Shown: in pieces, positions 655 to 29,300 of the stretch
Layout of the letters: every line of letters starts with the position of its first letter
How positions within the stretch are numbered: the stretch's first letter is position 1
Virus record (IMG/VR): IMGVR_UViG_3300025873_000014
Span: 1 to 36,774 of that record
DNA from: a virus
Strand: one strand, 5' to 3'
DNA: 36,774 nt
Program-made: the position numbers and the translations under genes
Notes under the pieces: generated by a model
Seen by the model: only the letters and a program-made list of their open reading frames with translations
What the model was told of the DNA's origin: nothing
The model's database searches: none

Positions 655-673
655 AAAACAACGCTGTTATTTA
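653..673 (+). repeat. 21-nt palindromic intergenic element, copy 1
   Basis: Matches the family core AACAACGNTGTTNTT with A-rich left and T-rich right arms. It begins inside the stop codon of the gene ending at 654, and unlike other copies lies 86 nt from the next start (760). As RNA it can form AAxAAC/GTTxTT paired arms around a GNT loop. Confidence 0.8.
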
Positions 674-676
674 CCC

Positions 677-690
677 GGGCCGAATGGCTC
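677..690 (+). other. Second copy of the GGGCC-GAAT-GGCTC hairpin
   Basis: Five pairs (677-681 with 686-690, one G-U) close a GAAT loop. The 14 bases are identical to the core of the leader hairpin at 239-252. A CCCGGG at 674-679 can instead pair with CCCGGG at 696-701, giving an alternative fold. It lies in the leader of the gene starting at 760. Confidence 0.5.
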
Positions 691-759
691 GGATACCCGG
701 GCGAGGGATTCACCCTTGCCCATACCGGGGGCCATGCCCCTACTATCAGGAGAACCAAA

Positions 760-1311
760 ATGTCGAATTTCAAAGCAACGTATGCCGGGCTCGTAGCCCA
801 TACCGTATCCACCGACAAGGCGGACAAGGCGCGCAACGAGGCCTACGCGAGAGCCGATGGCGCCGCGCTGAAGGTCGCCGTGCCGGACTCGCTCTTCGCC
901 CTTCGGGCGGATGGGTTCAGGACGAAGCGGAGCTTCACCAAGGGACAGCGCACCGAGGGGTCCAAGGTGAAGCTCGCGAGGGATGGCCTGATTGAGGCCT
1001 TCGTCGAGGCCGGAAAGTCGGAGTCGAGCGCGAAAAAGTGGTGGAACCGTCTGGTGCTGATCGCAACGGACTACCGGTTCAAGAAGGTGGAGACTCGCGA
1101 GGCCTTCTGGACGAAGCTGGAGGACGCGGAAGTGGACTCTATGGCCAAGCTGGACGCGCTGCTGCGTGGACCCGTGGACCTCGCGGACAGGGCCGAGAAG
1201 CAGGCCCGGGAGCTTCTTAAGACTCTCGCCAAGCTCTCCGAGGATACCGTGGATCTTGAGGCCTTCGTGAGCGGCGAGGCAGCCGTCGAGCTGAAAGCGA
1301 TCATCGGCTAG
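760..1311 (+). CDS. Hypothetical protein, 183 aa, Lys/Ala-rich
   Basis: Not recognised. The protein is soluble in composition, rich in Lys, Ala and Glu, and probably mostly helical, with a Trp-containing helix (KKWWNRL) near residue 95 and an acidic, Leu-rich C-terminal third. Start ATG 760 follows the canonical leader of this operon, CAGGAGAACCAAA. The 5' untranslated stretch 655-759 is unusually long for this operon and contains the palindromic element and a GAAT-loop hairpin. A GC-rich hairpin at 1330-1351 follows the stop. GC content is visibly higher than in the genes after 1.8 kb. Confidence 0.7.
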   Translation: MSNFKATYAGLVAHTVSTDKADKARNEAYARADGAALKVAVPDSLFALRADGFRTKRSFTKGQRTEGSKVKLARDGLIEAFVEAGKSESSAKKWWNRLVLIATDYRFKKVETREAFWTKLEDAEVDSMAKLDALLRGPVDLADRAEKQARELLKTLAKLSEDTVDLEAFVSGEAAVELKAIIG

Positions 1312-1329
1312 ATCGAACCAGAGCAGCAT

Positions 1330-1351
1330 CCCCGGGGCGAAAGCCCCGGGG
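1330..1351 (+). terminator. GC-rich GAAA-loop hairpin, possible attenuator
   Basis: CCCCGGGGC (1330-1338) pairs perfectly with GCCCCGGGG (1343-1351) around a GAAA tetraloop, a very stable 9-bp GNRA hairpin. The following bases (GTTGTTGGCTT) are not a true T-tract, so it is more likely an mRNA-stabilising or partially terminating structure than a full intrinsic terminator. Confidence 0.5.
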
Positions 1352-1368
1352 GTTGTTGGCTTGGACCT

Positions 1369-1389
1369 AAAAAACATCGTTGCTTTTTA
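1369..1389 (+). repeat. 21-nt palindromic intergenic element, copy 2 (divergent)
   Basis: The most divergent copy: A6-CATCGTTGC-T5-A. It keeps the A-tract/T-tract arms and the CG centre but differs from the consensus at three core positions. The next start is 34 nt downstream (1424). Confidence 0.65.
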
Positions 1390-1423
1390 GATCTGAACCA
1401 GCAACCACCACAGGAGAACGAGC

Positions 1424-1531
1424 ATGGACCTAACAGGATTTGACCTGACCACAGCGTTGCGCTGCATCATCGGAATCGCCGGGATGCTCTCGCTGTTCTT
1501 CGTAGAGGACGAGAAGGGGATGCTCCAATGA
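1424..1531 (+). CDS. Small single-span membrane peptide, 35 aa
   Basis: A 35-residue peptide. After a short polar N-terminus (MDLTGFDLTT), residues about 11-27 are hydrophobic (CIIGIAGMLSLFFV), followed by an acidic tail (EDEKG). This is the pattern of a single membrane helix. The ATG follows CACAGGAGAACGAGC, an exact copy of the operon's ribosome-binding leader, and the stop overlaps the next start as ATGA (1528-1531), so coupled translation is likely. Function unknown. Small inner-membrane phage peptides of this kind often act on host envelope proteins or block superinfection, but nothing here shows that directly. Confidence 0.65.
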   Translation: MDLTGFDLTTALRCIIGIAGMLSLFFVEDEKGMLQ

Positions 1532-1779
1532 AACGCGGCCCCGACCTGGGAACGATGGGCATCCCGCCCCGCGACCGCCTGGAGATAAGGCGGGAGTGGG
1601 TCGTGTCTGAAATCGAGAAGCTCCGGGGAGAGCTTGACAAGCTGGAGGGTGAGCGGGGGTGGATCGATCTCAATCTTGTCTGGCACTCGCGGAAAGAAGA
1701 TGAGGCCCGGGGCTTCACTAAATTCCAGAGGGCGTGTGAGGCATTCATAGCGAAGCCAAAAAACAACGATGTTTTTTAA
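1528..1779 (+). CDS. Hypothetical coiled-coil protein, 83 aa
   Basis: Not recognised. Residues about 17-45 (RLEIRREWVVSEIEKLRGEL onward) are strongly helical with heptad-like Leu/Ile spacing, consistent with a short coiled coil. The gene is coupled to the membrane peptide upstream by an ATGA overlap. Its last codons, ending in NNDVF and the TAA, are written by copy 3 of the palindromic element, so the element contributes the C-terminus. Confidence 0.6.
   Translation: MKRGPDLGTMGIPPRDRLEIRREWVVSEIEKLRGELDKLEGERGWIDLNLVWHSRKEDEARGFTKFQRACEAFIAKPKNNDVF
1758..1778 (+). repeat. 21-nt palindromic intergenic element, copy 3
   Basis: A6-CAACGATGTT-T4-A, closest to the consensus. It encodes the last residues and part of the TAA stop of the upstream gene and ends 17 nt before the next ATG (1796). 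Confidence 0.85.
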
Positions 1780-1795
1780 CAACAGGAGAACTAAA

Positions 1796-2116
1796 ATGGA
1801 CGAAGGGCAGACCTGTGCCACCTACGTATTCGAGGATCATGATCATATCTATCTGGAAAAGATCAGCCCGCAACACGCCCGGTCGCTGGTCAAGAAGGGA
1901 CCCCACTTCCAGGATATGACCTACCTGCAGCGAGGTGGGGAGAGGGACGTAATTATCAACGGTGTTAATTACGGTGAGCAATTTCTCAATAACAAGTACG
2001 CGGTGAGGGTTGCCGACTACGCAGCAAAACTTGAGAACCCTGAGTATGGGGAGGAGCTATGGGTGTACCGGTCGGATGATAATTATATCCTGACCGCACC
2101 CCGGAAGCGGGGATAG
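1796..2116 (+). CDS. Hypothetical protein, 106 aa
   Basis: Not recognised. The protein is acidic to neutral with a mixed alpha/beta pattern and no membrane segment or Cys cluster. The ATG at 1796 is preceded by ACAGGAGAACTAAA, the operon's standard leader; an in-frame ATG at 1769 lies inside the palindromic element and is rejected. It is followed by copy 4 of the element. Confidence 0.65.
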   Translation: MDEGQTCATYVFEDHDHIYLEKISPQHARSLVKKGPHFQDMTYLQRGGERDVIINGVNYGEQFLNNKYAVRVADYAAKLENPEYGEELWVYRSDDNYILTAPRKRG

Positions 2117-2124
2117 TCCTCGCT

Positions 2125-2145
2125 AAAAAACAACGGTGTTTTTTA
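2125..2145 (+). repeat. 21-nt palindromic intergenic element, copy 4
   Basis: A6-CAACGGTGTT-T4-A, identical to copy 3 except for the variable central base. It ends 12 nt before the next start and abuts the ACAGGAGAAC leader directly. Confidence 0.85.
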
Positions 2146-2157
2146 CAGGAGAACCAG

Positions 2158-2355
2158 ATGGACATCATCATCAAGAAAATGGAATCAATCCCGCCGGACT
2201 CAAACCCTTTCGATCATGACTCTTTCCATATGGGTAACACCATAGGCAAGGATCTACTCATGATGTATGCGACCCATAAAGACGAGGAACTCAAGTACTT
2301 CATACTCGTTGACCAGAAGACGGGCGAGCGAGTCAGGATCAACATCAGTAAGTAA
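2158..2355 (+). CDS. Hypothetical protein, 65 aa
   Basis: Not recognised. The short protein ends in a beta-rich stretch (YFILVDQKTGERVRINISK). The ATG follows TTACAGGAGAACCAG, a leader match of 12 bases to the motif complementary to 10934-10945. The next gene begins 22 nt downstream with the same leader. Confidence 0.6.
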   Translation: MDIIIKKMESIPPDSNPFDHDSFHMGNTIGKDLLMMYATHKDEELKYFILVDQKTGERVRINISK

Positions 2356-2377
2356 ACATCAAAACAGGAGAACTAAA

Positions 2378-2479
2378 ATGGACGAAGAACAGATCGAGGA
2401 GTACTACCAGGATATAAGCAGGGAGGCCGACAGCGGTCAGGATCTCATGATGGCACTCAAGCTGGAGGTCGAGCAATGA
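2378..2479 (+). CDS. Acidic peptide, 33 aa
   Basis: A 33-residue, very acidic and probably helical peptide (MDEEQIEEYYQDISREADSG at its start). Its start is well supported by AACAGGAGAACTAAAATG, the same leader seen at 1796. The stop overlaps the next start as ATGA (2476-2479). Acidic micro-proteins in phage early regions are often inhibitors of DNA-binding host proteins, which is an inference from class only. Confidence 0.6.
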   Translation: MDEEQIEEYYQDISREADSGQDLMMALKLEVEQ

Positions 2480-2628
2480 ATGAGCCCACGTTCAAGGAAC
2501 TCATGAACTGCAACACCGGTAGCGACGATAGACGCTGGGTCAAGGACGAGGCCGAGTACGATGACCGCACCACTGCAAGCCTGGGTGAGATCGCCCGGAT
2601 AGTCTTCACCGAGGATAAGGAGGAGTAG
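2476..2628 (+). CDS. Acidic small protein, 50 aa
   Basis: A 50-residue acidic protein, not recognised (MNEPTFKELMNC at the start, FTEDKEE at the end). It is coupled to the acidic peptide upstream through the 4-nt ATGA overlap. The end of the gene (AAGGAGGAG) supplies the ribosome-binding site of the next gene at 2632, a second coupling. The two acidic neighbours may act together, but there is no direct evidence. Confidence 0.6.
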   Translation: MNEPTFKELMNCNTGSDDRRWVKDEAEYDDRTTASLGEIARIVFTEDKEE

Positions 2629-2631
2629 ACT

Positions 2632-3096
2632 ATGACCGATAAACACACCAAGATAGATGAACTGATTAAGGCTCAGAAGGTACGGCAAGGCAGGGTCGCG
2701 GAACTGTATGAAGATCTGGCACAATCCCTTGCAATAGAGAGACTATTCCCCGATGCCTTTGAGCATGGCGCGTGCAAGCAGTCGTGGAATGACCTTGATA
2801 TTCCAGAGGGTGGCATGAAGTGGCCGGACGGATTGAGAACTGTCTCGTTGAAGGTGACCCGTGGCGATGAGTCCGTCAGGACAATGCTCTTCGAGGATCT
2901 CCCCGAATGGTTCATCAACGAACTGATAGTACGGAGAGGGATCACTGGCATCGAGCATATACCGGGTAGATCGAGAGCAAAACGTCTGACAGAAAAAGGC
3001 AGAGAACACCCAAGGCTGGACAGTAAACTGTCCAGAGTAGCCATGAAGAATAAGCTGAAGCGTAGGTTGAGACGCAACGCATCGAGATCTAAATAA
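2632..3096 (+). CDS. Hypothetical protein with basic tail, 154 aa
   Basis: Not recognised. The N-terminal half is helical and Lys/Asp/Glu-rich. The centre carries a WPDGLRTVSLKV strand pattern, and the C-terminal 35 residues are extremely basic (KNKLKRRLRRNASRSK), typical of RNA or DNA contact. AAGGAGGAG just upstream fixes the ATG. The TAA stop at 3094-3096 lies inside copy 5 of the palindromic element. Confidence 0.65.
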   Translation: MTDKHTKIDELIKAQKVRQGRVAELYEDLAQSLAIERLFPDAFEHGACKQSWNDLDIPEGGMKWPDGLRTVSLKVTRGDESVRTMLFEDLPEWFINELIVRRGITGIEHIPGRSRAKRLTEKGREHPRLDSKLSRVAMKNKLKRRLRRNASRSK

Positions 3097-3111
3097 CAAC
3101 GATGTTTCTTA
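3091..3111 (+). repeat. 21-nt palindromic intergenic element, copy 5
   Basis: AAATAACAACGATGTTTCTT plus final A. It contains the stop codon of the upstream gene. A purine-rich site (AGGGGGA) follows immediately, with GTG at 3123 placed like the starts after other copies. Confidence 0.8.
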
Positions 3112-3122
3112 GGGGGACCAAC

Positions 3123-3323
3123 GTGGTGGGTGATTCAACGCATGAAGTAGTTGAAGTATTTTGGGAGGAGATCTGCGCCATGGATTATGAAGTAGTTGCA
3201 GTATTTTTGGGGGAGGACCAGGCCCTGGAATATATCGAGAGCAAGACAAGGGATGAGCAGGACTCTCTATATATCACCAAGGATATGTTTAGCGGAAGCT
3301 ATGAAGTTGTGAAAATAAAATAG
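3123..3323 (+). CDS. Hypothetical small protein with internal tandem duplication, 66 aa
   Basis: Not recognised. The likely GTG start at 3123 lies 11 nt after the palindromic element, as in other copies, behind AGGGGGA. An internal ATG at 3180 has an excellent site (GGGAGGAG, 9-nt spacing) and would give a 47-residue version starting MDYEVVAVFLGED. The two regions are tandem duplicates with a 45-nt period: HEVVEVFWEE is followed by YEVVAVFLGE in the same frame. The 47-residue form resembles the small one-domain proteins common in phage early regions; the duplication adds an extra copy of the first strand and helix. Confidence 0.5.
   Translation: MVGDSTHEVVEVFWEEICAMDYEVVAVFLGEDQALEYIESKTRDEQDSLYITKDMFSGSYEVVKIK
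3142..3207 (+). repeat. 45-nt-period tandem duplication
   Basis: ATGAAGTAGTTGAAGTATTT at 3142 recurs at 3187 with a single mismatch over 21 bases. The period is a multiple of three, so the reading frame is kept. Confidence 0.75.
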
Positions 3324-3333
3324 GAGGAGTGAA

Positions 3334-3606
3334 ATGAGAGATCCAGGGAGAGAGACAAGGACATACAGAATTGATTGGGAGGCAACGATAGAGGGCGCAG
3401 CGTATATCGAAGCATCCTCGGTGACAGAAGCGGTTCGATGGTTCAATAAAGAACCAGGGATTTACACCAACCCGTTGGTCAGTCACAAGGTCGTAAGCAA
3501 GCCCGCTGCGATGGACGGGTATGAGTACAACGGCTACAGGATCAAGGTAGTGGGAGAGGAATACGACGAAAACGGCAACAGGATTAAATGCAAGGAGGAG
3601 GAGTGA
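3334..3606 (+). CDS. Hypothetical protein, 90 aa
   Basis: Not recognised by name. The pattern RTYRIDWEATIEGAAYIEAS, then a helix (VTEAVRWF) and a second strand pair (GYRIKVVGEEYDENGN), suggests a small alpha/beta domain often seen in phage proteins of about 90 residues. TAGGAGGAG 9 nt upstream sets the ATG. It is the last gene before promoter P2. Confidence 0.6.
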   Translation: MRDPGRETRTYRIDWEATIEGAAYIEASSVTEAVRWFNKEPGIYTNPLVSHKVVSKPAAMDGYEYNGYRIKVVGEEYDENGNRIKCKEEE

Positions 3607-3633
3607 ACCCGGCAGCGTAGGGAAATACACACA

Positions 3634-3661
3634 TTGACAACCATTATAGATGTGCTATAAT
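3634..3661 (+). promoter_or_regulatory. Promoter P2, near-consensus sigma70 with extended -10
   Basis: TTGACA (3634-3639), a 16-bp spacer, then TATAAT (3656-3661) preceded by TGC, so both boxes are perfect and the -10 is extended. An inverted repeat, ATTATAG (3643-3649) and CTATAAT (3655-3661), covers the spacer and the -10. This is the best host-type promoter found in the window. It drives the three-gene ATPase/metallopeptidase cassette, with palindromic element copy 6 in its leader. Confidence 0.85.
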
Positions 3662-3681
3662 GATATAGTAAGTTGAGTCGC

Positions 3682-3702
3682 AATAAACAACGGTGTTATT
3701 TA
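3682..3702 (+). repeat. 21-nt palindromic intergenic element, copy 6
   Basis: AATAAACAACGGTGTTATTT plus final A, located between promoter P2 and the next start (3718). Because P2 lies upstream, this copy is transcribed in the 5' leader, about 14 nt after the likely start site. It is therefore not itself the promoter. Confidence 0.85.
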
Positions 3703-3717
3703 CAACAGGAGAACACA

Positions 3718-4635
3718 ATGGCAGGCAAGAATGAAGCAATCAAGTTTCCCAGTCCCGCTGAGTTGGGAACAACCATCTCTTTGCACGCGAGATTTGGTGG
3801 AGGAAGGAAGCAGCACAGGACCGCAACGGCTGAGTTGATTGAGTCCAAGTCAGTCAAAAATAAAAAGCGAGCAGGTGTATGGGTTGAACTCTTCGACTCA
3901 CCCCATCTGAACAACGCCAAGAATATGAAGCAGACTCTGGCGAACTGGATCAAGGCCAACACTATGCCCTGGGGTGATGACGGGCGAAGGTTCGTACCCA
4001 ACGCAATCAAGATTGAACTCGACAGTCATATCAATAAGGCAATCACGGAGATCAAGGGGGAAATGGAGAAGCACTTCGGCTCCTACATTGACCAGAAGAA
4101 ACTCTGGGAATCAGAGGGTGGCGGCCTTGCACAATACGGAATGGAGTTTCCCTCCGAGGAGGTGGGTAGAAGTAAGTTTGAAATAGAAGCAATCCCAGGA
4201 GTTATCACGGAAGCTGCCGACGTTAACGTGAGTGGATTGACAGAAGAGCAGAAGGAACGGTTCATTAAGGACGTACACGCTGCTGAAAATAGCAGACTCC
4301 AGGGTACGGTTCGGGATGTGACTAGCAGGGTGGAGGATGTTCTCGTAAGGATGGTTGATAGAATGGGAGCATATGGCAAGGACGAGAACGGCAAAACCGT
4401 AGGCAAGTTTCACGATACAATCGTGGGTAACGTGCGGGAGATCGCCGGACTACTTGGACACTTCAACATCACCAACGATCCCGAGATCGAGAACGTGCGA
4501 AGACGATTGGTCAACGAGATCTGCGTTGTTACCCCTGATGAACTAAGGGAGGACCCCGAACTCAGGAAGAATATCAAGAGCAAGGCAAGCGACATCCTCT
4601 CCAGGGTTGGACAGTTTGGTTCCAAGCGAGATTAA
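3718..4635 (+). CDS. DUF3150-like protein, partner of MoxR/VWA genes
   Basis: A 305-residue protein resembling the DUF3150 group, which in phages and some bacteria sits next to a MoxR-type ATPase and a VWA protein. That assignment rests on the general pattern (N-terminal GTTISLHARFGGGRKQ, central MPWGDDGRRFVP, helical middle around YIDQKKLWE, then a long helical C-terminus) and on the neighbourhood, not on a search. The start at ATG 3718 follows ACAGGAGAACACA; upstream in-frame codons run through the palindromic element and are rejected. It is the first gene behind P2, and the next gene starts 25 nt after its stop with the same leader. Its likely role is as a substrate, adaptor or third subunit of the ATPase system. 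Confidence 0.65.
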   Translation: MAGKNEAIKFPSPAELGTTISLHARFGGGRKQHRTATAELIESKSVKNKKRAGVWVELFDSPHLNNAKNMKQTLANWIKANTMPWGDDGRRFVPNAIKIELDSHINKAITEIKGEMEKHFGSYIDQKKLWESEGGGLAQYGMEFPSEEVGRSKFEIEAIPGVITEAADVNVSGLTEEQKERFIKDVHAAENSRLQGTVRDVTSRVEDVLVRMVDRMGAYGKDENGKTVGKFHDTIVGNVREIAGLLGHFNITNDPEIENVRRRLVNEICVVTPDELREDPELRKNIKSKASDILSRVGQFGSKRD

Positions 4636-4660
4636 TATTTCTAAAACAGGAGAACAAGAA

Positions 4661-5812
4661 ATGGAATGGAACAACACGGACGAATTCACGACAGAAGAAG
4701 TCATGGACATGATCGACGCGACAGTCGAAGCGCAACTGGCAGGCGGGGATGCGACTATCCTCTATATGGAATCTCCTCCCGGCATCGGCAAGACCAAGAT
4801 GATCTGTGCATATGCAGAGTGGAAGGAGAAGCACGGATCCAAGGCGCTCGGCATCGCCCATCCCAAGGTGCTCGTGAGGATAAATATCCTCTCGCAAAGT
4901 GACAGCGTTGACTTCGGGGCACCGGCACCGGACTTCAAGGAGGGGAAGCTGAACTTCCTGGTACCTGATGATATCCTTGGACAAGCCAAGGGGGATGAGC
5001 AGTACGATATTGTGATGGTGTTCTGGGACGAGCTTCCCAACGCCAATCCCGCAACCCTTTCAGCTTGGCAGTCCGTTGCCGAGGAGGGTGAGATTCGCGG
5101 GAGGAAGAAGGCGGACAACTGCGTGTATATCGCAGCAGGCAACCGGCCCGAGGATAAGTGCGGAGCGAGGGCTCTTCCTAGATCCATCCGCGAGGGTCGA
5201 ATCATTACTGTCCCGATGGGTGTATCTATGCCCAGGCTCATCGCCTACGCTGAGGAGAAATGCTGGGATGCTCGGCTGGTTGCCATGCTTGGCTGGGCAG
5301 AACTACAGAACAAGGAGATGCTCAACTCGTTCGATCCCAACACCAAGAGCAAGGTGCAGCCATCTCCCCGTGGTGTACAGAAGCTCAACTCTCTACTGAA
5401 CCAGGGACTCGACGAAAAAATACTCGATGCTCTCGCGCCTGGCTGCGTGGGTGACAAGATGTGGACAGAGATCAGAGCCTTCTTCATTATGGCAGAAGAT
5501 CTCCCCACACTCACTGAGATCTTCGATGATCCCGATGGTGCAAGGATGCCCGGGGAAGACAACCCCGAAGTGGGACCCAACGGGCAGTACGCTGTGATCT
5601 CCAATGTCGCAGCGTTCCTCCAGCACTGCAAGAATGGGGGCAATCATGTAGAGTCGAAGACATTCAATGCAATCGCATCCTACTTCGAGCGGATGGATGC
5701 GGAGATGCTTCTCTTCGGACTCAAGCTGTGCCAGAACGCACATGATGAATTCTCCAATTGTTCCAAGTGGGGAGAACTTCAGGTCACGCACAGTGAAATC
5801 ACCCTCGGTTAA
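4661..5812 (+). CDS. MoxR-like AAA+ ATPase
   Basis: A 383-residue AAA+ ATPase. Visible motifs are a Walker A (SPPGIGKTK, residues 38-46), a Walker B (IVMVFWDE, D123-E124), a sensor-1 Asn in AAGNRPEDK (N161) and candidate arginine fingers at R174/R177 in LPRSIREGR. Members of the MoxR group act as ring chaperones that remodel proteins or insert metals, usually with a VWA-domain partner. Here the next gene encodes such a partner, and the gene before is DUF3150-like. The ATG at 4661 follows AACAGGAGAACAAGA. The TAA stop overlaps copy 7 of the palindromic element. Confidence 0.85.
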   Translation: MEWNNTDEFTTEEVMDMIDATVEAQLAGGDATILYMESPPGIGKTKMICAYAEWKEKHGSKALGIAHPKVLVRINILSQSDSVDFGAPAPDFKEGKLNFLVPDDILGQAKGDEQYDIVMVFWDELPNANPATLSAWQSVAEEGEIRGRKKADNCVYIAAGNRPEDKCGARALPRSIREGRIITVPMGVSMPRLIAYAEEKCWDARLVAMLGWAELQNKEMLNSFDPNTKSKVQPSPRGVQKLNSLLNQGLDEKILDALAPGCVGDKMWTEIRAFFIMAEDLPTLTEIFDDPDGARMPGEDNPEVGPNGQYAVISNVAAFLQHCKNGGNHVESKTFNAIASYFERMDAEMLLFGLKLCQNAHDEFSNCSKWGELQVTHSEITLG

Positions 5813-5830
5813 AAACAACACTGTTATTAA
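5810..5830 (+). repeat. 21-nt palindromic intergenic element, copy 7
   Basis: TAAAAACAACACTGTTATTA plus final A; the central G is replaced by A. It contains the stop codon of the ATPase gene and ends 11 nt before the next ATG, with GGGAGAAC between them. It is the last copy seen. Confidence 0.8.
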
Positions 5831-5841
5831 GGGAGAACTCA

Positions 5842-7152
5842 ATGATCCGAGACATACTTTTTACACAGATAGATGGTGCAGAAAAGAGGCAGTGCATCAA
5901 GGCTGTACAGAGGTGCAGGTGGAGGCTGCTGAACGACTATCCATATTACGGATCCATTGCGATGGGATTCGATGTGGTGGTATGCAACAACTGGAATGGT
6001 CGCGGAGTAGAGACGGCAGCAACGGATGGGAGGCATCTCTTTGTCAACCCACAATACTTCCTCGACCTGACGTTCGACGAGCAACTCTCACTCGTTGTTC
6101 ACGAAGTATCACACAAGGCCCTGGCACATCACCTTAGACGGGGCGGTCGGAATCATGATCTCTGGAATGCAGCAACCGATCATGCCGTGAACCACCAGAT
6201 TCTGGATGCCGGAATGAAGATCGGGGAGGGCTGGTATTGTGATTACAAATACAAGGGGTGGAGTTCGGAAAGGATATACGGAAGGGTGGAGGAGGAGTTC
6301 AAGCCGCCCCCGCCCCCGCCCCCGCCGCCCGGGGGAAAGCCTCCCCCGCCTGGGGCTGGGGGAAACGAGCCGCCGCCGCCCGGGGGAGGTGGGGAGCCGC
6401 CCGAGAAACAGCCCGGCGAGGTGTGGGATGCCACCGACAAGGACGGCAAGGAGTTGACCGAGGAAGGGAAGCATAAAGCAATGCGCGACCTGACTGTGGA
6501 TGTACACATGGCCAACGAGGCAAGCAAGACTGCTGGCAATGACGGCAGCGCTCTCCACAAAAGATCGGTGAACGAAATTCTCGCACCGTCTGCCGATTGG
6601 GCAAACCTCCTGTCTGAATTCTGGTCTGGAACCGGCACTCCCATTAACGAAACGTGGAGCAGGCCAAACAGGAGATACCTGCCCGCAGGTATCTGGGCAC
6701 CCTCCATTCATGAGGGAGGAATTGATTGGGGCGTAATAGGCATGGATGTCTCCGGCTCTATTATGCAGAGGGAGTGTGACGCATTCATAGCAATGATCAA
6801 CCAACTCAGGACGGAGGTCCCGGCAAGGAGGATCACCATCGTACCATTCAACTCTGTGATACAGAAGGATGATATAGTGGAAATATATGATGGTGACGAT
6901 GTGCCGAATAGATTCAACGTCGGCGGAGGAACCAACTTTAAGTCGATTACCAACTGGGTGAAGAGGCAGACAGAAGATCCTGACTTCCTCATTATCTTCA
7001 CTGATCTTTGTTGCTCTAGCTACGGACCGAAGCCAAGCTGCCCCACACTATGGGCAAGCTCGGACCCGGTATATGACAGCGACTCGTATTCAAACAGGCC
7101 TCCGTTCGGAGATGTCATAGAGGTGGAGGTTCCCGGGCCGCGCTGGTACTAA
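5842..7152 (+). CDS. DUF2201-type metallopeptidase/VWA protein
   Basis: A 436-residue two-domain protein. The N-terminal domain carries a zinc-peptidase motif HEVSH (H87, E88, H91) followed by HDLWNAATDHAVNH, where Asp/His can supply the third ligand. A Pro/Gly-rich linker (about residues 154-193) with runs of up to nine Pro follows. The C-terminal half is a VWA-like domain with a metal-ion-dependent adhesion motif DVSGS (302-306) and FTD near residue 390. This is the arrangement known as the DUF2201 putative metallopeptidase with VWA-like domain, paired with MoxR ATPases. The inferred role is a protease or metal-binding adaptor worked by the ATPase. GGGAGAACTCA sets the start. Confidence 0.85.
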   Translation: MIRDILFTQIDGAEKRQCIKAVQRCRWRLLNDYPYYGSIAMGFDVVVCNNWNGRGVETAATDGRHLFVNPQYFLDLTFDEQLSLVVHEVSHKALAHHLRRGGRNHDLWNAATDHAVNHQILDAGMKIGEGWYCDYKYKGWSSERIYGRVEEEFKPPPPPPPPPGGKPPPPGAGGNEPPPPGGGGEPPEKQPGEVWDATDKDGKELTEEGKHKAMRDLTVDVHMANEASKTAGNDGSALHKRSVNEILAPSADWANLLSEFWSGTGTPINETWSRPNRRYLPAGIWAPSIHEGGIDWGVIGMDVSGSIMQRECDAFIAMINQLRTEVPARRITIVPFNSVIQKDDIVEIYDGDDVPNRFNVGGGTNFKSITNWVKRQTEDPDFLIIFTDLCCSSYGPKPSCPTLWASSDPVYDSDSYSNRPPFGDVIEVEVPGPRWY

Positions 7153-7174: not shown

Positions 7175-7795
7175 ATGAAAAGAGTAATGTGCGAAAAGCA
7201 CACCGCACAAAAATCATGGGTAATTGATAAGGGTCACAGCAGGGGGGGTCGCTTCAGGTGTACCCTGTGTGTCAAGGAATACAATACAGGCTACAGGCTC
7301 AAGCACGCTGATAAGCTCCGCAGTTCAGCCAGGAAGCGCTCCTCAAAATACCGGGAAGAGAACCGAGAAAGATGCAACGCATACAACAAGAAATATTGCA
7401 AGGGGTACCGTATCCGGAATCGTGGGGTCATCAAGGAGAAGCGGGATGCCCGGCGACTTTCCTACCCCGAGAAGAGGAGGAAGGAGAGGCAACTCTACAG
7501 GGCGAGGAAGGCAAGCTCGATATGTACGGTATGCAATGGAAACGAATACGAAAAGATTGTGACCGGTACCTGTTATGTATGTCTCTCGGAACCGGCTGCG
7601 CAGACGGATCACATCACCCCGCTCGCAAAGCAGGGGAGGCATTGCAACCTTAACTTTGGGGGCATCTGTCCCGGGTGTAACCAATCGAAGGGATCCAGGG
7701 TGTGGCCCGGACATAAGGGCTGGGATTCATTCGTCATGGAGAGGAGGGGTGAGATAGATGGACTTTATGTTCATGGAAGTGGAGTGGGAGTCTAG
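7175..7795 (+). CDS. HNH endonuclease
   Basis: A 206-residue protein with a C-terminal HNH nuclease domain: CYVC, then DHITPLAKQGRHCNLNFGG and CPGCNQSKGSR, giving two zinc-binding CxxC pairs and the metal-binding DH and N residues. An N-terminal zinc knuckle (CEKH, CTLC) is joined by a very basic helical stretch (residues 45-110), as in DNA-binding HNH proteins of phages. It may be a free-standing homing endonuclease or a nuclease acting on host or phage DNA; the sequence does not decide. TTCAGGAGAACAAA precedes the ATG. Its 3' end overlaps the next gene by 38 nt. Confidence 0.85.
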   Translation: MKRVMCEKHTAQKSWVIDKGHSRGGRFRCTLCVKEYNTGYRLKHADKLRSSARKRSSKYREENRERCNAYNKKYCKGYRIRNRGVIKEKRDARRLSYPEKRRKERQLYRARKASSICTVCNGNEYEKIVTGTCYVCLSEPAAQTDHITPLAKQGRHCNLNFGGICPGCNQSKGSRVWPGHKGWDSFVMERRGEIDGLYVHGSGVGV

Positions 7796-8294: not shown

Positions 8295-8524
8295 AAAATA
8301 TCATAATTATTTTCCTAACAGCAACACTATCATACGCTTGCCAAACGGGTCCAGTCCCAGACCCGGAGAGTGACTCCCCACTAATACTGGGTGACACGGT
8401 GGATACACCCTGGGGATGTGTCTTGTGGAGAAGGGACAACAGTCAGAAATGTTGCTACCTGGAAAGAATCGATGAGACAATCGATGACTCTTCGGGATGG
8501 GAACTAGACGATTGGGATTGCTGA
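8291..8524 (+). CDS. Small lipoprotein
   Basis: A 77-residue precursor with a typical signal: Lys at position 2, a hydrophobic core (IIIIFLTATL) and a lipobox-like SYAC with the Cys at about residue 17. The mature part is acidic and has five further Cys, so disulfides and a periplasmic or outer-membrane location are likely. The start at ATG 8291 is preferred to ATG 8282, because AGGGAGG lies about 10 nt upstream of the former but only 2 nt from the latter, and because 8291 forms an ATGA overlap with the previous gene. Phage lipoproteins of this size, such as T5 Llp, can block superinfection by masking a receptor; that role is inference here. Confidence 0.75.
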   Translation: MKNIIIIFLTATLSYACQTGPVPDPESDSPLILGDTVDTPWGCVLWRRDNSQKCCYLERIDETIDDSSGWELDDWDC

Positions 8525-8913
8525 TGAATTATATAGAAGATGCTGGTAAAATTTTCCGCAGGGTAAAGAATGGCTTTACATACAAGAGCGACAAGGAACT
8601 GTACGACAAGCCAGAGGATTGGAGATTCCCAGAAAACTATGACCGCATCTATGGTGATTGTGATGACTTCGCAATCGCATGTAGATCATTGCTGAAGAAG
8701 AAAGGTCACGACTGTCGATTGATATTTTGCATGACTGAGGACAACTCCGGACACTTGATATGTTCAGTAGGTAAACTTGCCCTGGACAACAGACTCAAGT
8801 GGCCCATGAAATTGTCCGACCTAGTTCGAGTTCACGGATACAAAATAATATCAGTTAGCGGACTCAATCGCGGTGACCCATGGAAATCCGCATCACTGAA
8901 GGGAGGAAACTAA
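8524..8913 (+). CDS. Transglutaminase-like cysteine peptidase
   Basis: A 129-residue protein matching the bacterial transglutaminase-like cysteine peptidase pattern: catalytic Cys in GDCDDFAIACR (about residue 46), His in NSGHLICSV (about residue 79) and Asp in LALDNR (about residue 88). The start at ATG 8524 overlaps the preceding TGA as TGATG, so translation is coupled to the lipoprotein gene. Phage members of this family are mostly unstudied. Cleavage of a host or phage protein, or of peptidoglycan peptides, is possible; there is no signal peptide, so a cytoplasmic or virion role is more likely. Confidence 0.8.
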   Translation: MNYIEDAGKIFRRVKNGFTYKSDKELYDKPEDWRFPENYDRIYGDCDDFAIACRSLLKKKGHDCRLIFCMTEDNSGHLICSVGKLALDNRLKWPMKLSDLVRVHGYKIISVSGLNRGDPWKSASLKGGN

Positions 8914-19928: not shown

Positions 19929-20378
19929 CTAGTTTTTGAGATCCAGACTCCAGGAATGATCCCTGAATTCGAGAACCTCTTTTCTGTTATTTCCCAGATA
20001 AGAAACATGGACCCACCCAGATGATGGGATGTCCCTATCGTGATGCTCTAGTATCAGTTGATCGAAGTCTAGATTATCCCTAATCCAGACCGCAAGATCA
20101 TAGTTCGATACACCATAAATTTCTAAATCGGCAGCCTGCCCCAGTATGTGCTGGCTTTTGTCGTGAGAACCTATCTCGTTGTTTAACACCAACGACCGGT
20201 AGCCGGACGCGGGGCTGAACGGCCTGTCGAAATGAAACCTAACTGGTTCAAGTATATTTTTACATAAAGACTTTAGGTTAGAAACCTCAATCCAGCTAGG
20301 ATCATTGGGTATATTCTTCCTGGTAGCAACCTGACTCCTCGTCAACTCAGCCAACGAAAAATTTTCAGATAACTTCAC
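19929..20378 (-). CDS. M15-family endolysin (peptidase)
   Basis: A 149-residue peptidoglycan hydrolase of the M15 (D-Ala-D-Ala carboxypeptidase/L-Ala-D-Glu endopeptidase) group: FSPASGYRS (55-62), SQHILGQAADLEI with zinc ligands H77 and D84, a Glu at about 111 and WVHVSY with H124. There is no signal peptide, so it needs a holin to reach the wall. The start is a GTG at 20378, overlapping the stop of the giant gene as GTGA. It opens the lysis cassette. Confidence 0.9.
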   Translation of the reverse strand: MKLSENFSLAELTRSQVATRKNIPNDPSWIEVSNLKSLCKNILEPVRFHFDRPFSPASGYRSLVLNNEIGSHDKSQHILGQAADLEIYGVSNYDLAVWIRDNLDFDQLILEHHDRDIPSSGWVHVSYLGNNRKEVLEFRDHSWSLDLKN

Positions 20379-23300
20379 CGTCCGGCGATCATCCTCTTTA
20401 GCTCGGGAACCATACTCAGAGCACGACTCTCCATCTCATCGTACATAAACTCCCTCTCTTTCGTAAGCCTGTTTGTTCGGAAATCCTTAGACCTAGCATT
20501 CCTTATCTTGGAGAGGTTCCTCTCTATTGCGTTCACAGCACCCCTCACCGAGAGAAGATCGGCATTGTCACTGATCATCTCAACTGCCCGCTCCGGCTCA
20601 GTCCCCTGAACCTGCTTGATGGCCAGCATCATCCCGTCGATAGCGTTCCTCATCTCGTAGAAGTCAGTCTTCAGACCACCGCCGTACTGATCTCTAACGA
20701 ATCTCCGAACGATGGGGAGATCGGTAGCCCTGGCGCCGGGCCTTGTAGGCATACCAGGAATCATCCATCGCAACCCGTTGTCCAGGGCCTGCAACGTGTA
20801 GATACCAACTCCACCAAAGATAGTTCTCAGTGTGTTATCGATCTTCCTCGGACTCAGCCCGGTAGCACTGCCGAGGAGCCTGGCTTGCGCAGTAGTGTTG
20901 TCAGAATATTGTTCAGCACCAGGCATATTCTCCTGCCACTGCGGGACAATGGGATTACCAGTAAACATATTCTTGTTAGCGAACCATTCCCATACCGGCC
21001 TGATGGCCTGGGGCGTTGGATTAAAACTAAGAGTACTCGTTATGCCATGCCAAAGAGACTTACCAACGTCAGCCCTCGTTCCGCCGTATCTTCCGTCCGT
21101 CATCTCGCCGATGATGAAGTTTGTTATCGCCTCCGGAACCAACTTATACATGACCCCGGCCTCAAACGGAATCGGGACCCCGAACCAGTAATCCATGCCG
21201 GGGATGGGCAGCAACCAATAGTCATCCTTCACATGATCTGGCAGTTTTTCCCTATCGGTGTCAAGGATTGCCATCGCTGCGTACATGGCGGAGACCGATG
21301 ATACGGTAGTTGCCCTGAGGAGCATCGATGTCTTTACATCTTGCGGGTTCAACCTCCCCGTAATACTGTCCCCGCGCATAGACCTTGCCGCCGTTGCCAG
21401 ACCCTGCAATCTGGAATTGAGGAACGGTACAGTCGCCGTTATGAGTTGCATGTATGGATTACTACCATGCCGACTAAAGTTCAGGACCTCTACAGCCTGA
21501 TACGCAGCCTCTCCCATAGCCTTTCTTTCGGCGATATTTATACCGTTGTCATCCAGGCGGTCGAACCCAGCCTCTCGGTACTTATTTAGTGCATGAATGT
21601 AAGCAGACTCATAGACATTCTCCCTCGTCGCAGATTCAGAGCGCGAACTCAACTCACCAGTCGCATCCCAAAATTTCCTGAGAATATTCCCAACTCCGGC
21701 ACCCTTGCCGATATCCATGGCGAATCGTCTGGTTAGTCGCTCGGGGGTAAGCTCTGCGTGTTCCACTCCGGAAATGGCACCCATCCTCTGCAAGTGGGTG
21801 TATGTCTCATTGGCCTCACCACGGGTCATCTTTGAAACATTGCTCGCCATCGTCTTGGCTGCATCGATGATTGGCTCGGCCTCCCCGCCATTCAGGATAT
21901 ACACATGCAACGAATCCCTAAGCATGTTTGCAATCAAGTAGTCAGGGGACCGCGTGACCAATGATCTAAGCAACCTTGCCGGTATGCCCAGAAATTCAAA
22001 GTATGGATTATGACCCTGGAAACCACCGACTATAGCTTCATGGAATATGGGATCCTTCAGGAGGTAGTGCTTGTTCTCTCCGGCAACACGGATAGTTACC
22101 GTGCTCTGCTTCTCATTGATGCCTAGCCTGCCCAATTCCCCGGATGAAATTTCGGTAGCCTGATCTATCATCAGGGCATCGCGGATAGCCCTCTGCGATG
22201 CAATATTTCTCAACGACCCGGTAATGGCCGCCCTTGCATTTCTGACTATGGACTCAATCGGATCAAGTATCGCCTGATCCTTTCCAAGCCCAGAATACTT
22301 CATGTGCTGACGTTGATTAGCTATACCAGCAGACATGAACATCTCTGCATCGGGGCGACCCAATTCCCTGCTCAGGATACCCTCAATCGTCTCGTTCCTG
22401 ACCCCCTCAAGCTCAACGTAGAACGGTATGTAATCCGAATACCTTCGGTAGACATCGCCCATCTCTTCGCTGATAATACCCGCATCGATCTGGAGTTGAA
22501 TGATCCCGTCGTTCCAGTTCTGTATATTTTGTGCAGCAACAACTATCTCGGGATTATTCTTTGCAGCCTCCATCCCCTCCGCTATCACATCCTTATCGAA
22601 GGGTACCGACCGGCCCTCATGATTGAGGCGGGCACCTCTGAGCGCACGCATATACAGGAACAGTTCAGGAATCAGCCTCTTCGCAGACAGTGCTTCGAGT
22701 ATCGGAAAGAGACCACCCTCTGATCCCTCTTCGTACATACCCTCAACGGTAACCATCTCGCGCTCAACCGTTCTCCCTGTAACTGGATCGAACTCCCTCC
22801 TGGGGGCAGAGTTAACCAGTTTTAACCCCTCGATCATCGGGACTCCGTGCTTGTATGTCATCACCCCATCCCTGAGGGAGGTCGCCAGATACCCAGCCGC
22901 CTTGTCCGACATAAGGGCCATCGCGTGGGCGGATACATCAAACAGATCGTGCATCCCCTCGTACCCAAGCTCCTCGGCCTTGGCCCTAGCAAGTTTTCCG
23001 TATCGCTCGATCCGCTTAAACCGATCAAGCATTGAAGCAATGAGGATATCGCTCCAATCCTTCGTGGGAGAAGCTAGCGATGCGCTGAAGGAATCCCAAA
23101 TTGTCCTGAGGCCGTGGCTGCCAGACTGGGGAAGCCCGACACTTTCAAGTGCTCTCACTTGCTCCGGAGATCTGCCCTCGTATGAATTGGTCGCATACCT
23201 CCTGCGTTCCGAATCTCTGAGCTTAGGAGACAACTCAGGCTTCAGGAATGTTTTAATCGACTCGATACTGGCATCCTTGCCGTGCAGATGCCCAGTAATA

Positions 23301-26300
23301 TTCCTTCTACCGCCGACGGGGTTTGCAAACGTGTCTACCGGGTAAGCAGATACAACATAGGCAACATCCCCCAGCCCTTCCTTTGGAATATTCATGGTCC
23401 TGACTAGGACTGGCTTCTTGAACTCCGGACTAGACCATATGAAGGAAACTGCACCCTGCTCTGGATATGAAACAATTTCCCCAATCCTCTCCTTGTTCTT
23501 GAAGTCCCTCATCTCCCTCCCGAAGCCAACGAGAAGTTCGCGCCAATTCTTGTAGCTGGAGGTTAAATTCTGTATGTCCTCGTTGTGCCTGTCTAGGTGT
23601 ACGGCACCGAAGCCACGCTCCCCCAACTCTGTACCGTCCGGGGCTAGCCTTGCATCCTCATGGTGTCCCGAGAGAACCACGACTGGCATACCGGACTCAC
23701 TGTACTGACCGACACCATCATAGTTGATCCCGAACCAAGAGGAATCGCCAACGCTCAGGGCTCCGGAAGCATAGCCATCTTCGGGAACAGCACCCGGTGA
23801 AATCGGGGTAAAGGAATCATCAAGCACCTCGTCACCGAAAGGTTGATCCCTAATGAGACCACGGTCTGCGGAATCCACAACGGATGTTGACTCCCTCAGC
23901 TCCCGAGTTCCGCCAATCGTAGAAGCCCTGGATCTGGTGGGGTCCCTGGGTAGGCCAGCGGCTTCGCGGGGGGAAATGGGGGCTGGCCTGAGCCTAAGCG
24001 CCTCTGCCTCACCCCTCCTTCCTTCCGATTCCAGTCTTTCGTATTCGGAAACCAAGCCATCCAGAACTCGCGCCTTCTGCATGAGGGCATCGTACTCACC
24101 CTTACCGAGATGGATTGCCATATCTTTCCCTAGCTTACCCATCTCTGTTAACGCTACGTTATGGGTCTCGTGAGCATCTACATAGCGAGAGAGTGCAGAT
24201 ATCTCAGACCTCCTCTGCCTCTCAACCTCCTTACTGATTAGATCCTTGAGATTTGGATGTTTCTTCCGGAACGCATTCCATAAATCAGACCTAGTTTCAA
24301 AGCCTGCTCTTTTCCGGACTTCCGAACCTGCATCATCCAAGCGCTTAAGCTCGGGCTCCAAAATAGGAAGAAGGTCAAACTCTGCGTTGAAGCGTCTCGA
24401 ATCCTCGATGTCATCCTCAAGAGACATTCTTCTCTCTGAACCAAACCGCAAAACCTTATTAACCTTTTCCCTAACATTTATAATGGCTATTCCTTTATGC
24501 TGCTGGGCTCTGTTGGATATATCCCCAACGTGCTCCAGCAGGTCGCCAAGGACTGCCGGGAATCCAGCACGATTAGCCCCTGCCGTTATCTCATCCATAA
24601 CGGCTTCGGGTACGCCCCGCTGCGTTTGCGCGGCGGCATGGGCATCTCCTTCGGAGATCAGTTGCCCCCCAACCATCGAAGCTCTGGATCTGGTCGGATC
24701 CTCGGGTAGGCCAGCGGCTTCGCGGGGGGACCTCTCCTCCCACGCATCATCCCTCCATTCCTTGAGCAACTCAAGATCGTCAAAGTACTGCTTGCTGTCT
24801 GCTATTAGCTCATCAAAATTCCTAATCGCTTCGCGTTTCGTAGTCTCCCTAGAGTCTATACCCACAAGACTGCGAACATCATCTACGCCAGCGTCATCGG
24901 GCAACTCTTCAAGTTTGGCCCTCTGCGCCTCTCGACCCCGAATATTCTCAGTTGCCGACTCTTGCTGCCTGTTGATCTCTTCGATAGTTGGCGCAGCACC
25001 ACCTGCAAGTCTGATTTCTCCGTTAGGCCTTCTGTCGAATGATCCACGCTTAATGGCTGCATCTATGGTGTTCGTCGGGGCCGTCACAATACGGTCGTCA
25101 TCAACCATGCCAGATAGCTTGCGAATCATGCTACGAGCGTCAGTTGCACTCATTATCTGAGGATCCGCAGCGCCAGTATAAACCTCAACCTCATTCTTGC
25201 CGAACATCCTGAATGTTTTTCCGTCGAATGCCGTCTCGCCGTTATTGCGTAATTCCCTGAGGCGCACCCTGATTAGGTCTTCGGGGTCAACTCCCCCACG
25301 GGCACCCTCACCAACCATCGAAGCCCTGGATCTTTCGGGGTCTTCGGGCAGACCGGCGGCTTCGCGGGCAGCCCTCGCCTTTCTCTCGCGACCAGCCGCA
25401 TCCAGCCCGGCCTCAACCCCCGTGCTGGTAGGCATGACTCCCGACTCGCGCTGGAGTATCGCATCCACCTCTGCCTCAGGTTTACCCATCGCCAGGAGTT
25501 GCTTTCTTCGCTTATCAGTTACTTTCTCTAGCTCTCCGCGAAGGGCGAGGGTCTTGCTCCTTATCTCACTCGCCTCGCCCGACCTCCTGGCCCACCAGGG
25601 ATCAAGGGATCTTCCATTCTCAATCCTGGTAGCCATCTGGTCGCCATAAAGGGAGTGGAATATTTCGTCAGCACTCTTGTAACCCTGGCCAGTGAGTGCC
25701 CTGAATACACTCTTCAGGAAGTTGGCCGCCCTGAGTATCAAACCCTTGGGCTGACCCGCCAACTTGACCTCGCCAGTAAACACATCCTGGTATAGCTGGG
25801 CGATTGCCTCCTCGAAATAATCATCCTCGATCCACTTCAGGGAACCCTCACGATCCATCTCCGCCCTGAACTCTTCCTCAGTCATAGCCCCTTCACTGAG
25901 GGCATTCTCCAGCTTGCTTATCTCAGCAGACCTGTTACCCATTTCAGAATAGGAACTCTGCGCAAAATCTAAATACGTTGAACCCTCGGCGAGCGGCTTC
26001 TTGCCATCTGCGATTAGGGCGTCATTCATCTCCTTTAGGCGGGCACTGGAGATCTTCCTCTTCAGAGCAAACTTCCTCAGGGACTTCCACTCTTGTGGCT
26101 TAATAACTCCCAACTTCCTGAAGGCATGAATGGTCTCATGGCGAACGAAGGGGAGAAGGATGTTTACAAGAGTTTCCTCTGAACTTATCTCCTGCAACCC
26201 CACTGTGTATGCAAGCTCGATTGTCTGGGTAGCATCGTTGAATGTTGCGAGAGCACCAGTCTCGTCCTGTAGCGCCTCAACAAGATTGATCCTCACATCC

Positions 26301-29300
26301 TCCAGGCCAACCTGCTTCAGGACAGAACGCAACTTGGTCGTAACGGCCTTGACGAGATTGGACTGATCATTCGGGGGCGGGGGAAGCGGCTTCCGCACTG
26401 GGGTTGAGACATCTTCTAAGGTTGGTTCCGGAACAGCCTCAAGCGCCCTGGCCTCGAAATCATCCGGCCTAGCCCTCCTGCCCAACCTACCCTTGACGGA
26501 CTCGCGACCAGTCCTGTCATGTATGATTAGGTCACGACTCCCAATTGCTCTCTTCTCTGCCTTCCGCGCAAGAATTTCTTTAGCCTTGTCGTATCGGGAC
26601 TGAGTAATCTGACCACTCTGGAGCATTACATCCAGGGCAGCGAGATCGTCCGTGTAATCAAAGAAGTCAACCTCCCGCATTCGGGAAGACTTCTCCCTAC
26701 CGGAAGCACCCTCCTCCTCCGTCCTTGACTCGGACAAGGACCAGCCAACTTCCTTCCTGGGAGCCAACAGTCCAGCGTCAACACCAACTGACTGGACCTT
26801 CATGCTCTTGGCGTAGGCCTTGGAAGCCTTCAGGGCCTTCTCCCTGGCCATCCTATCGATGGTCTGACTTCCATAAATGGAATCAGAACGCCACGGGAAC
26901 CTAGAGGGTTCCGACGTAGCCTCCCCCAGGGACTTCACAACAGCGTCGTAGTTCGATTTATATACAGACGCCTCTTTGTCCCGCTTGAACTTATTGGCCT
27001 CCGACCTTGAGGAAAGTCTCTTGATCCTTACGCCGTCTACAACAACATCGAATACCCTGGTATTGCCGTTGGCCCTACCTACATATTCCTCAGCCTTCTT
27101 CTTGGACGAAAAAGACTTTACGAAATCACCCTTCGCCTGCCCTTCGACGGGGGCCTTCCTTACAACCCAGGCCGTACCGCCCCTCCCCCCGGGCTTGTGG
27201 GTTACGGAATATCTATACCCCTCCACGACCTCGGGAATAGGCCGGGATGGATTCTCAATTATTTCCACAACCCCCATGGGGTTGGTCGAGCGGAACGCAT
27301 TGCCCATTGCCCTGGCATCGGACACACCCTCTTGTTCAGCGTCAAGACCAGATGAATAAATAGAAGACCTGGCCTCTTCCGCCTCCTTCTTGCTGGAATA
27401 CCTAGTTGGGTCGAGGGTTCCATTGACTATTAGCTGGTAAGACCCGGCATCTCCCCGGTCGGGAGAAACATACTCCTTGCCCTGCCTTACCTCGATATCT
27501 CTCCGCGTAATGGCGGCTGTGCGGAGTCTGTCATAGGCCCGGAGGCTATGTATCCCGTACTTCTTGCCCATCTCCTTGAGGGATGGGAATGCTCCATCCT
27601 TTGAATCGATGGCGTCCTGAATTATCTTCTTATACAGGCTCTCATTAATCCCCTTGGGGAGACTCGAACCAGACAAGGAATATTTAACATCGCCACTACT
27701 GGTGGTCTCGGCCTTAACGAGACCCATCTCAACCATCTTCTCGATATAACCATCAGCGATAGCGTCCGTTGTGGTGTCATCGAGGCTCGCATCATTAAGA
27801 CCGAGGGCGGATCGGACACCGGCAGTGGTGACGGACTTACTCTTACGCTTATTTAGCTTGGCACCAAGGTCAACCGCCTCCTCGGGGCTGGCGTAAGCGA
27901 GCCTGGATGCTGACTCCTGCCTGGGCATAGCGGATATCCGCTTATACATAGACAGGAGCTGATCATCGTTCATACTGTCAAGCTCAAGAGACCCGGTGAG
28001 CCTCTTGCTGAATGACATGAACGCGGGATCATTATCCCAGAGAATGTTTCTGTCCTCTGCTATCTGTACAACATCCCGCTTGGTAACCTTCTCGTCGTTG
28101 TAGATTATCCTCCGGTACTGTTCCCTCAACCCACCGGCAATCTCGCTCATTCTTCCGAGCCAGAACTTACTCTGGCGAGAATCCATATCCCTCGTAGCAG
28201 CCTCAGCTTCTACGGTCTCTGCCGTAAGTCGCTCCTCACTCTTGCGAACAGCCTCCTGGACCCTTATGTAATCTTTGTAATTCTGTTCAACCTCGGCGTC
28301 CGAAAGCAGGCTGCGCTTCTGCTGTATCTTGTGACCAACCTCACCCATTCCCGCAAAGCCAATGGATGGAAACAGGGTTGCGAGTGCGATCTCGGCATAC
28401 TCGGCGGCAGCCTCTTCATCAGCGGGGCTAACTGCAAGACCGGCCTGCCACCGCTCAAGCGCCTGCTGCCCAATTTCCGCCACCTCTTCCTCAACGAGCG
28501 TGCCAACAAACCTATTAAGCGGAGAGGATCTACTTATCTTGTCAGCCACCCTGGCAAAGGCAGACCTCGCAGCACCCTGCGCTGGCTTGCTGCCGATCCG
28601 AAGCGCCGGACCCAATATCAGGAATCCCAGATTATCCAAGGCAGTCTGACCGGCGGCAGCAGTAAGCACCTTGCCCAGGCTGACATCCTCGGTGTCAACT
28701 AGGCCCTCGGCGTAGTCCCTCTCCAGTTCCTCGGACATAAACGCAAGCATGGTAGTCAGGGACCTGCCCGCCCAGAACCCCGCCGTGCCCCCCAGGGCAG
28801 CACCGGGTGGACCAAGCACACTACCCAACAATGCCCCGGCAGCGCCGGTCACAAGGGATGGGGTCACCCTGCCCATGCTGCTGCCTATCTGCTCTGCACC
28901 GAACTCAAAGCCAGTGCCAATGGCGGACAACAATCCATCCTTGTCGTATGCCTCGCCAATATCGCCCACACTGAGGAGGTCGGGGGCTATAGCGTGAGCC
29001 TCCCTGCTGGCCCTCACCAACCTTGCCTGGGCCTCGTCGTAGGCCTCCTCGTCGCCCGAAGCAACCGCAACAGCAGCCCTAGCGCCTGGAATCAGGCCAG
29101 AAACTGTGCGGTCAAGGCTGGATACGAATGCGTCTATCGGACCAGAGTCCTCGTCGGTCGCAAATATTTCCGGGTACTTCTCCCTGGCCCTGGCCAAGGC
29201 CTCCTCGTCCGTGACTTCCGGGCCAACCTTGACATGGCTCCCGTCGGGAAGATAAACCATCCTCTTCTGTTCCGGTTCAGCCGGACGAGGACGCCTTCCG

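Follow-up and report, generated by a model that had tools for sequence, protein, structure and literature searches.

Several cellular machines pair an AAA+ ring with a VWA cochaperone, including NorQ/NorD, CbbQ/CbbO and RavA/ViaA. Their cellular clients are known, and to our knowledge none of them carries a peptidase domain or a DUF3150 subunit. In NorQ-NorD, the best studied of the machines of this kind, the VWA protein inserts a finger into the pore of the ring and contacts the post-sensor-1 loop with its C-terminus, and ATP hydrolysis twists the partner (PMC13036017). Among phages, the group 2.2 jumbo phages encode a MoxR and metallopeptidase-vWA pair with a proposed role in virion assembly, described without a third subunit (PMC7824862), and gp24 and gp25, core genes of the N4-like phages, give transcripts of the middle class in N4 (PMC4193335). 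Here we describe a three-gene cassette at positions 3634-7152 of the 36,774-base virus record IMGVR_UViG_3300025873_000014 (the window). The three genes are co-directional, lie on the plus strand as do all cassette features given below, and encode a DUF3150-like protein (gene 1), a MoxR-like AAA+ ATPase (gene 2) and a metallopeptidase-VWA protein (gene 3).

Comparison with these systems revealed shared architecture and a distinct third part. N4 gp24 and gp25 are homologous to the ATPase (26% identity) and the metallopeptidase-VWA protein (25% identity), and are adjacent in the same order as in the window, whereas no DUF3150-like gene exists anywhere in the N4 genome. The jumbo phages share the two-protein architecture, and the pair of GAP32 matches both window-derived profiles. 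The first-pass annotation had stated that target and purpose are not described by anything visible, which is too strong because the pair had been described in jumbo phages (PMC7824862) and belongs to the core gene set of N4-like phages. The three-part form appears to be undescribed: in the open-access literature we found no paper naming DUF3150 and none describing the three-part form or tying it to the plasmid cassettes considered below. All three proteins are found in the cultured cyanophage MinM2, where they match profiles built here (7e-71, 2e-94 and 6e-85). Its genome also carries Erf, a PD-(D/E)XK nuclease and a primase 37% identical to the window primase. MinM2 differs in gene order (ATPase, DUF3150, VWA), in the small genes interspersed and in its 65 kb genome. 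This phage was deposited also as Pag-Yong1 and Pra-JY27; the records OQ594354, OL906435 and PP438419 are each 65,014 long and encode the identical DUF3150 protein, and despite differing names and hosts they are probably one phage.

Gene 2 (4661-5812, 383 residues) matches phrog_1297 (ATPase) with an E-value of 6e-39 and has no significant match in Pfam. The Walker A lysine Lys44, the Walker B residues Asp123 and Glu124, the sensor-1 residue Asn161, the candidate arginine finger Arg180 and the sensor-2 residue Arg237 are almost invariant across 82 relatives, with Glu or Asp at position 124 in all of them. Its sequence identifies gene 2 as a MoxR-like AAA+ ATPase in which the catalytic motifs are complete. 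Gene 3 (5842-7152, 436 residues) fuses a DUF2201 metallopeptidase domain (DUF2201_N, PF13203; E-value of 4e-34, 118.9 bits against a cut-off of 23.2) to the DUF2201 VWA domain (PF09967; E-value of 1.3e-17, 64.5 bits against 26.4). The zincin motif HEVSHxxxxH spans residues 87-96 (6100-6129) inside DUF2201_N, and His87, Glu88, His91 and His96 are kept in 89 to 90 of 90 relatives; the conservation of Trp108, Asn109, Ala111 and Asp113 is partly built in, as the search pattern used those residues. A proline run at residues 155-163 (6304-6330) begins a flexible linker between the peptidase and VWA parts, and the structural model (mean predicted local distance difference test score, pLDDT, of 86) is low in confidence at residues 171-190. 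The metal-ion-dependent adhesion site (MIDAS) residues Asp302, Ser304, Ser306, Thr364 and Asp388 (6745-7005) are kept in all 90 relatives, in a modelled VWA fold with a Z-score of 13.0 and a root-mean-square deviation of 2.5 over 132 residues. Just before this core, the basic motif RPNRRY (residues 274-279, 6661-6678) has Arg or Lys at position 277 and keeps Arg278, each in 87 of the 90, with a model pLDDT of only 62-67; it is a candidate docking finger or linker. From its motifs gene 3 is predicted to be a protease: the metallopeptidase motif is intact, and the VWA domain has all MIDAS residues. The first-pass annotation had named the HEVSH motif and the MoxR ATPase and metallopeptidase-VWA parts, and all were found, HEVSH at residues 87-91; the idea that such a pair is a protein-remodelling machine is well supported. 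In PHROGs the metallopeptidase-VWA family phrog_1314 is labelled 'HNH endonuclease', and the names 'HNH endonuclease' and 'homing endonuclease' are attached to it in many phage records; the gene 3 protein of the window itself showed no HNH domain.

The third subunit, gene 1 (3718-4635, 305 residues), was harder to place. Direct searches of Pfam, PHROG and NCBIfam gave no match, with the Pfam DUF3150 cut-off not reached, and tblastn against phages gave chance-level matches only. Homologues of about 300 residues lie between the ATPase and VWA genes in Rhodovastum, Burkholderia and Variovorax plasmids. The Pfam DUF3150 model places a Peteryoungia member of the gene 1 family just over its cut-off and Cloacimonadota and Cupriavidus members below it, and the Peteryoungia match, the Cloacimonadota match and one of the two Cupriavidus matches map onto the gene 1 loci fetched here. 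Alignment by hhalign of 46 gene 1 family members with seven DUF3150 proteins scored 97.6% (P of 2.8e-12, 203 columns), against at most 4.4% for shuffled, reversed and unrelated control profiles; an initial alignment with a single DUF3150 sequence had scored 10%, so that the seven seeds were needed. The AlphaFold model of gene 1 has a mean pLDDT of 91, and its best viral structural match by Foldseek is a protein named DUF3150 (E-value of 2e-17, template modelling scores of 0.76 and 0.79). A fold search of the Protein Data Bank gave no significant match, and a second look there found common four-helix bundles only, at residues 183-305 with Z-scores under 11. On the family profile comparison, the Pfam matches to relatives and the fold match, we therefore call gene 1 DUF3150-like at the family level (PF11348); it lies below the Pfam threshold itself and is not a member. 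The first-pass assignment thus failed in a direct Pfam search of gene 1 and stood at the level of the family. Of the other genes near the cassette, one for a protein of about 220 residues that resembles Nmad5 (nucleotide modification associated) occurs in or beside it in 28 viral loci, for example at L082:2490-3143, with an E-value of 7.6e-6, just under the Pfam cut-off. In many phages this gene separates the ATPase gene from the VWA gene, and it was considered as a replacement for gene 1; the two are neither homologous nor mutually exclusive.

Distribution was examined in two samples of the nearest relatives, not a census: the 80 viral loci closest to gene 3, out of at least 566, and 80 bacterial or archaeal genome loci, the latter dominated by Burkholderiales. 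The ATPase is present in 76 of the viral and 73 of the genome loci, and all three genes in 34 and 46, respectively; the survey of phages sharing the three genes that had been suggested from the window alone found them in these 34 loci and in MinM2. The order ATPase, gene 1, VWA occurs in 62 of 72 loci and that of the window in 8. The closest relative found, locus L012, is 61% identical in gene 1 and 58% in gene 3. On a tree of the VWA protein, the presence of gene 1 switches state about 7 times, and gene 1 has therefore been gained or lost repeatedly. Where neighbours in phages could be recognised, genes for DNA polymerase A, primase/helicase, exonucleases, RusA and the clamp or clamp loader were the most frequent. 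For the 139 same-strand neighbours scanned, the 25 commonest matches include no head or tail family. The window itself encodes an exonuclease (phrog_2139) and an Erf-like annealing protein at 14006-15483 on the plus strand, by library match.

Cassettes with the same three roles are found on plasmids. Genes of DUF3150 proper in Pfam are accompanied by genes for a CobS-like ATPase and for a VWA protein with an HExxH motif, and a DUF3150 relative is present in 1,168 plasmid records, 978 of them conjugative. One IncC plasmid has the order AAA, hypothetical, ssb, bet, exo, DUF3150, VWA, and one Vibrio plasmid the order ssb, bet, exo, AAA, hypothetical, DUF3150, hypothetical, VWA, radC, primase-helicase. 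Their DUF3150 protein is related to that of the window and their VWA protein has HEAAH and a MIDAS, whereas their ATPase is only distantly related to gene 2. No relation of these VWA proteins to DUF2201 was detectable, so the architecture shared by plasmids and phages may be part homology and part convergence. The three-gene set is also found in Burkholderiales plasmids.

Based on these data, we tentatively propose, with slightly less than even confidence, that the cassette is an early or middle ATP-driven machine for protein remodelling and processing within the phage DNA replication and recombination programme. Its early or middle DNA-metabolism setting, which the first-pass annotation had anticipated as an early region, is supported by synteny and by the middle transcription of N4 gp24 and gp25 (PMC4193335). 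In the proposed mechanism, the ATPase would form a hexamer, and the VWA part would dock on its ring by a finger or linker, as NorD does on NorQ. The MIDAS or the DUF3150-like subunit would hold the client, ATP hydrolysis would twist or open it, and the metallopeptidase would cleave either the client or a regulatory segment. As client, a phage or host DNA-transaction protein would be most likely, for instance a factor in replication or recombination or a nuclease acting at DNA ends. A wider proposal, which we regard as doubtful, is that the AAA+, DUF3150-like and metallopeptidase-VWA proteins make up one unrecognised class of remodelling machine in phages and conjugative plasmids, which would support their single-strand-annealing recombination or their replication, for instance through the removal or processing of proteins at DNA ends. 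Two core genes of N4 and a conserved cassette of multidrug-resistance plasmids have been without a function for years; placing them in a single architectural class, marked by a common third subunit and a DNA-recombination setting, would yield a definite, testable hypothesis.

Several observations weigh against the proposed role in DNA replication and recombination, for which gene neighbourhood is an indirect kind of evidence. Gene 1 is absent from the whole genomes of N4, Deifobo, D265, I29 and GAP32, so the DUF3150-like subunit is not essential to every version of the machine. The 41 viral records with no copy of gene 1 beside the cassette, many of them fragments, have none elsewhere either. 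Eleven viral loci have a gene for the terminase small subunit nearby, and the Burkholderiales plasmid copies adjoin type IV secretion genes, not recombination genes. One VWA copy on a Variovorax plasmid (L010:6928-8214) has lost the His and Glu of HExxH and retained the MIDAS.

The published proposal for the same ATPase/metallopeptidase-VWA pair, made by analogy to the tail-assembly MoxR-VWA proteins of Acidianus two-tailed virus (PMC7824862), is that the machine folds and clips structural proteins during virion assembly or maturation. In roseophage RPP1, four virion proteins are encoded near the gp24/25 homologues (PMC4193335), in agreement with such a role. However, the cassette is also carried by plasmids, which make no virion, its phage neighbours are replication genes, it lies on the strand opposite the giant late-type proteins of the window, and N4 gp24/25 transcription is middle (PMC4193335). 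A role in virion assembly is therefore unlikely in our view, and we favour replication or recombination over it on two grounds, the presence of the machine on plasmids and the DNA genes that surround it in phages.

The first-pass annotation had also suggested that the machine could process or disarm a host protein; a defence nuclease would be one such target. Phages and plasmids are its carriers, the IncC and Vibrio copies adjoin ssb-bet-exo, and ternary systems of the MoxR-vWA type take part in conflict (PMC7159879), all of which would suit counter-defence or host takeover. The third component of those ternary systems is VMAP, iSTAND or FtsH, whereas that of the window is DUF3150-like; no sign of VMAP, iSTAND, FtsH or effector domains was seen in general Pfam and PADLOC scans, as distinct from searches with models dedicated to these components. 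Against disarming of a host protein, PADLOC gave no convincing match, no reported anti-defence gene was recognised nearby, and the core residues are conserved rather than fast-changing. The neighbours, moreover, point to replication and recombination; a host-disarming or conflict role finds no direct support here, and we judge it unlikely. Defence of the element itself against other phages or plasmids (exclusion) would be consistent with carriage by conjugative plasmids and phages, but is improbable, given that Pfam and PADLOC revealed no effector domain and that the cassette is placed in replication modules. Finally, chelatase-like insertion of a metal or cofactor, as by CobST, NorQD and CbbQO, is suggested by the shared ATPase/VWA logic (PMC13036017) and by distant kin commonly named CobS/CobT-like, but it is very improbable, as no metalloenzyme or tetrapyrrole gene was seen near the cassette and an intact peptidase motif is retained instead.

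Returning to the locus itself, the three genes start with ATG at 3718, 4661 and 5842 and follow the best promoter of the window, as first noted. This sigma-70-type promoter (3634-3661, TTGACA-16-TATAAT with a TG ahead of the -10 element) scores 12/12, as no other site in the window does, the runners-up reaching 10/12; by our own estimate, a perfect match is expected by chance about 0.01 times per window. In L012, the promoter TTGACA-16-TATACT, one base off, lies upstream of the same three genes. A ribosome-binding site of the form CAGGAGAAC/GGGAGAAC precedes each of the three genes; the window has 13 occurrences of this pattern where 3.6 would be expected.

A 16-base dyad, AAAACAACGRTGTTTT, recurs at seven early-region sites (655, 1371, 1760, 2127, 3093, 3684 and 5812), counted at up to 3 mismatches over 655-5827, and has zero occurrences in shuffled sequence at 2 or 3 mismatches. 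The copy at 3684-3699 lies between the promoter and the ribosome-binding site of gene 1, and that at 5812-5827 between genes 2 and 3; the element mostly stands directly 3' of a stop codon and 5' of a ribosome-binding site. Predicted folding of an RNA hairpin at the dyad is no better than that of shuffles, so an operator is equally likely. In L012 the dyad is found at 110, 782, 1625, 2814 and 4944. When IMG/VR was scanned for exact matches, just two records had more than one copy, the contigs of L012 and of L238, a second relative carrying the cassette.

Downstream and outside the machine, an HNH endonuclease gene (7175-7795, plus strand) adjoins the cassette here and in L012, and the operon probably continues into it. 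A giant protein of 2,997 residues (20375-29368, minus strand) was considered as an N4-like virion RNA polymerase; this identity was dropped because it carries Large Polyvalent Protein domain 38 (LPD38) near its C-terminus. The same gene run as the cassette includes a small transglutaminase-like cysteine peptidase (Peptidase_C93) at 8497-8913.

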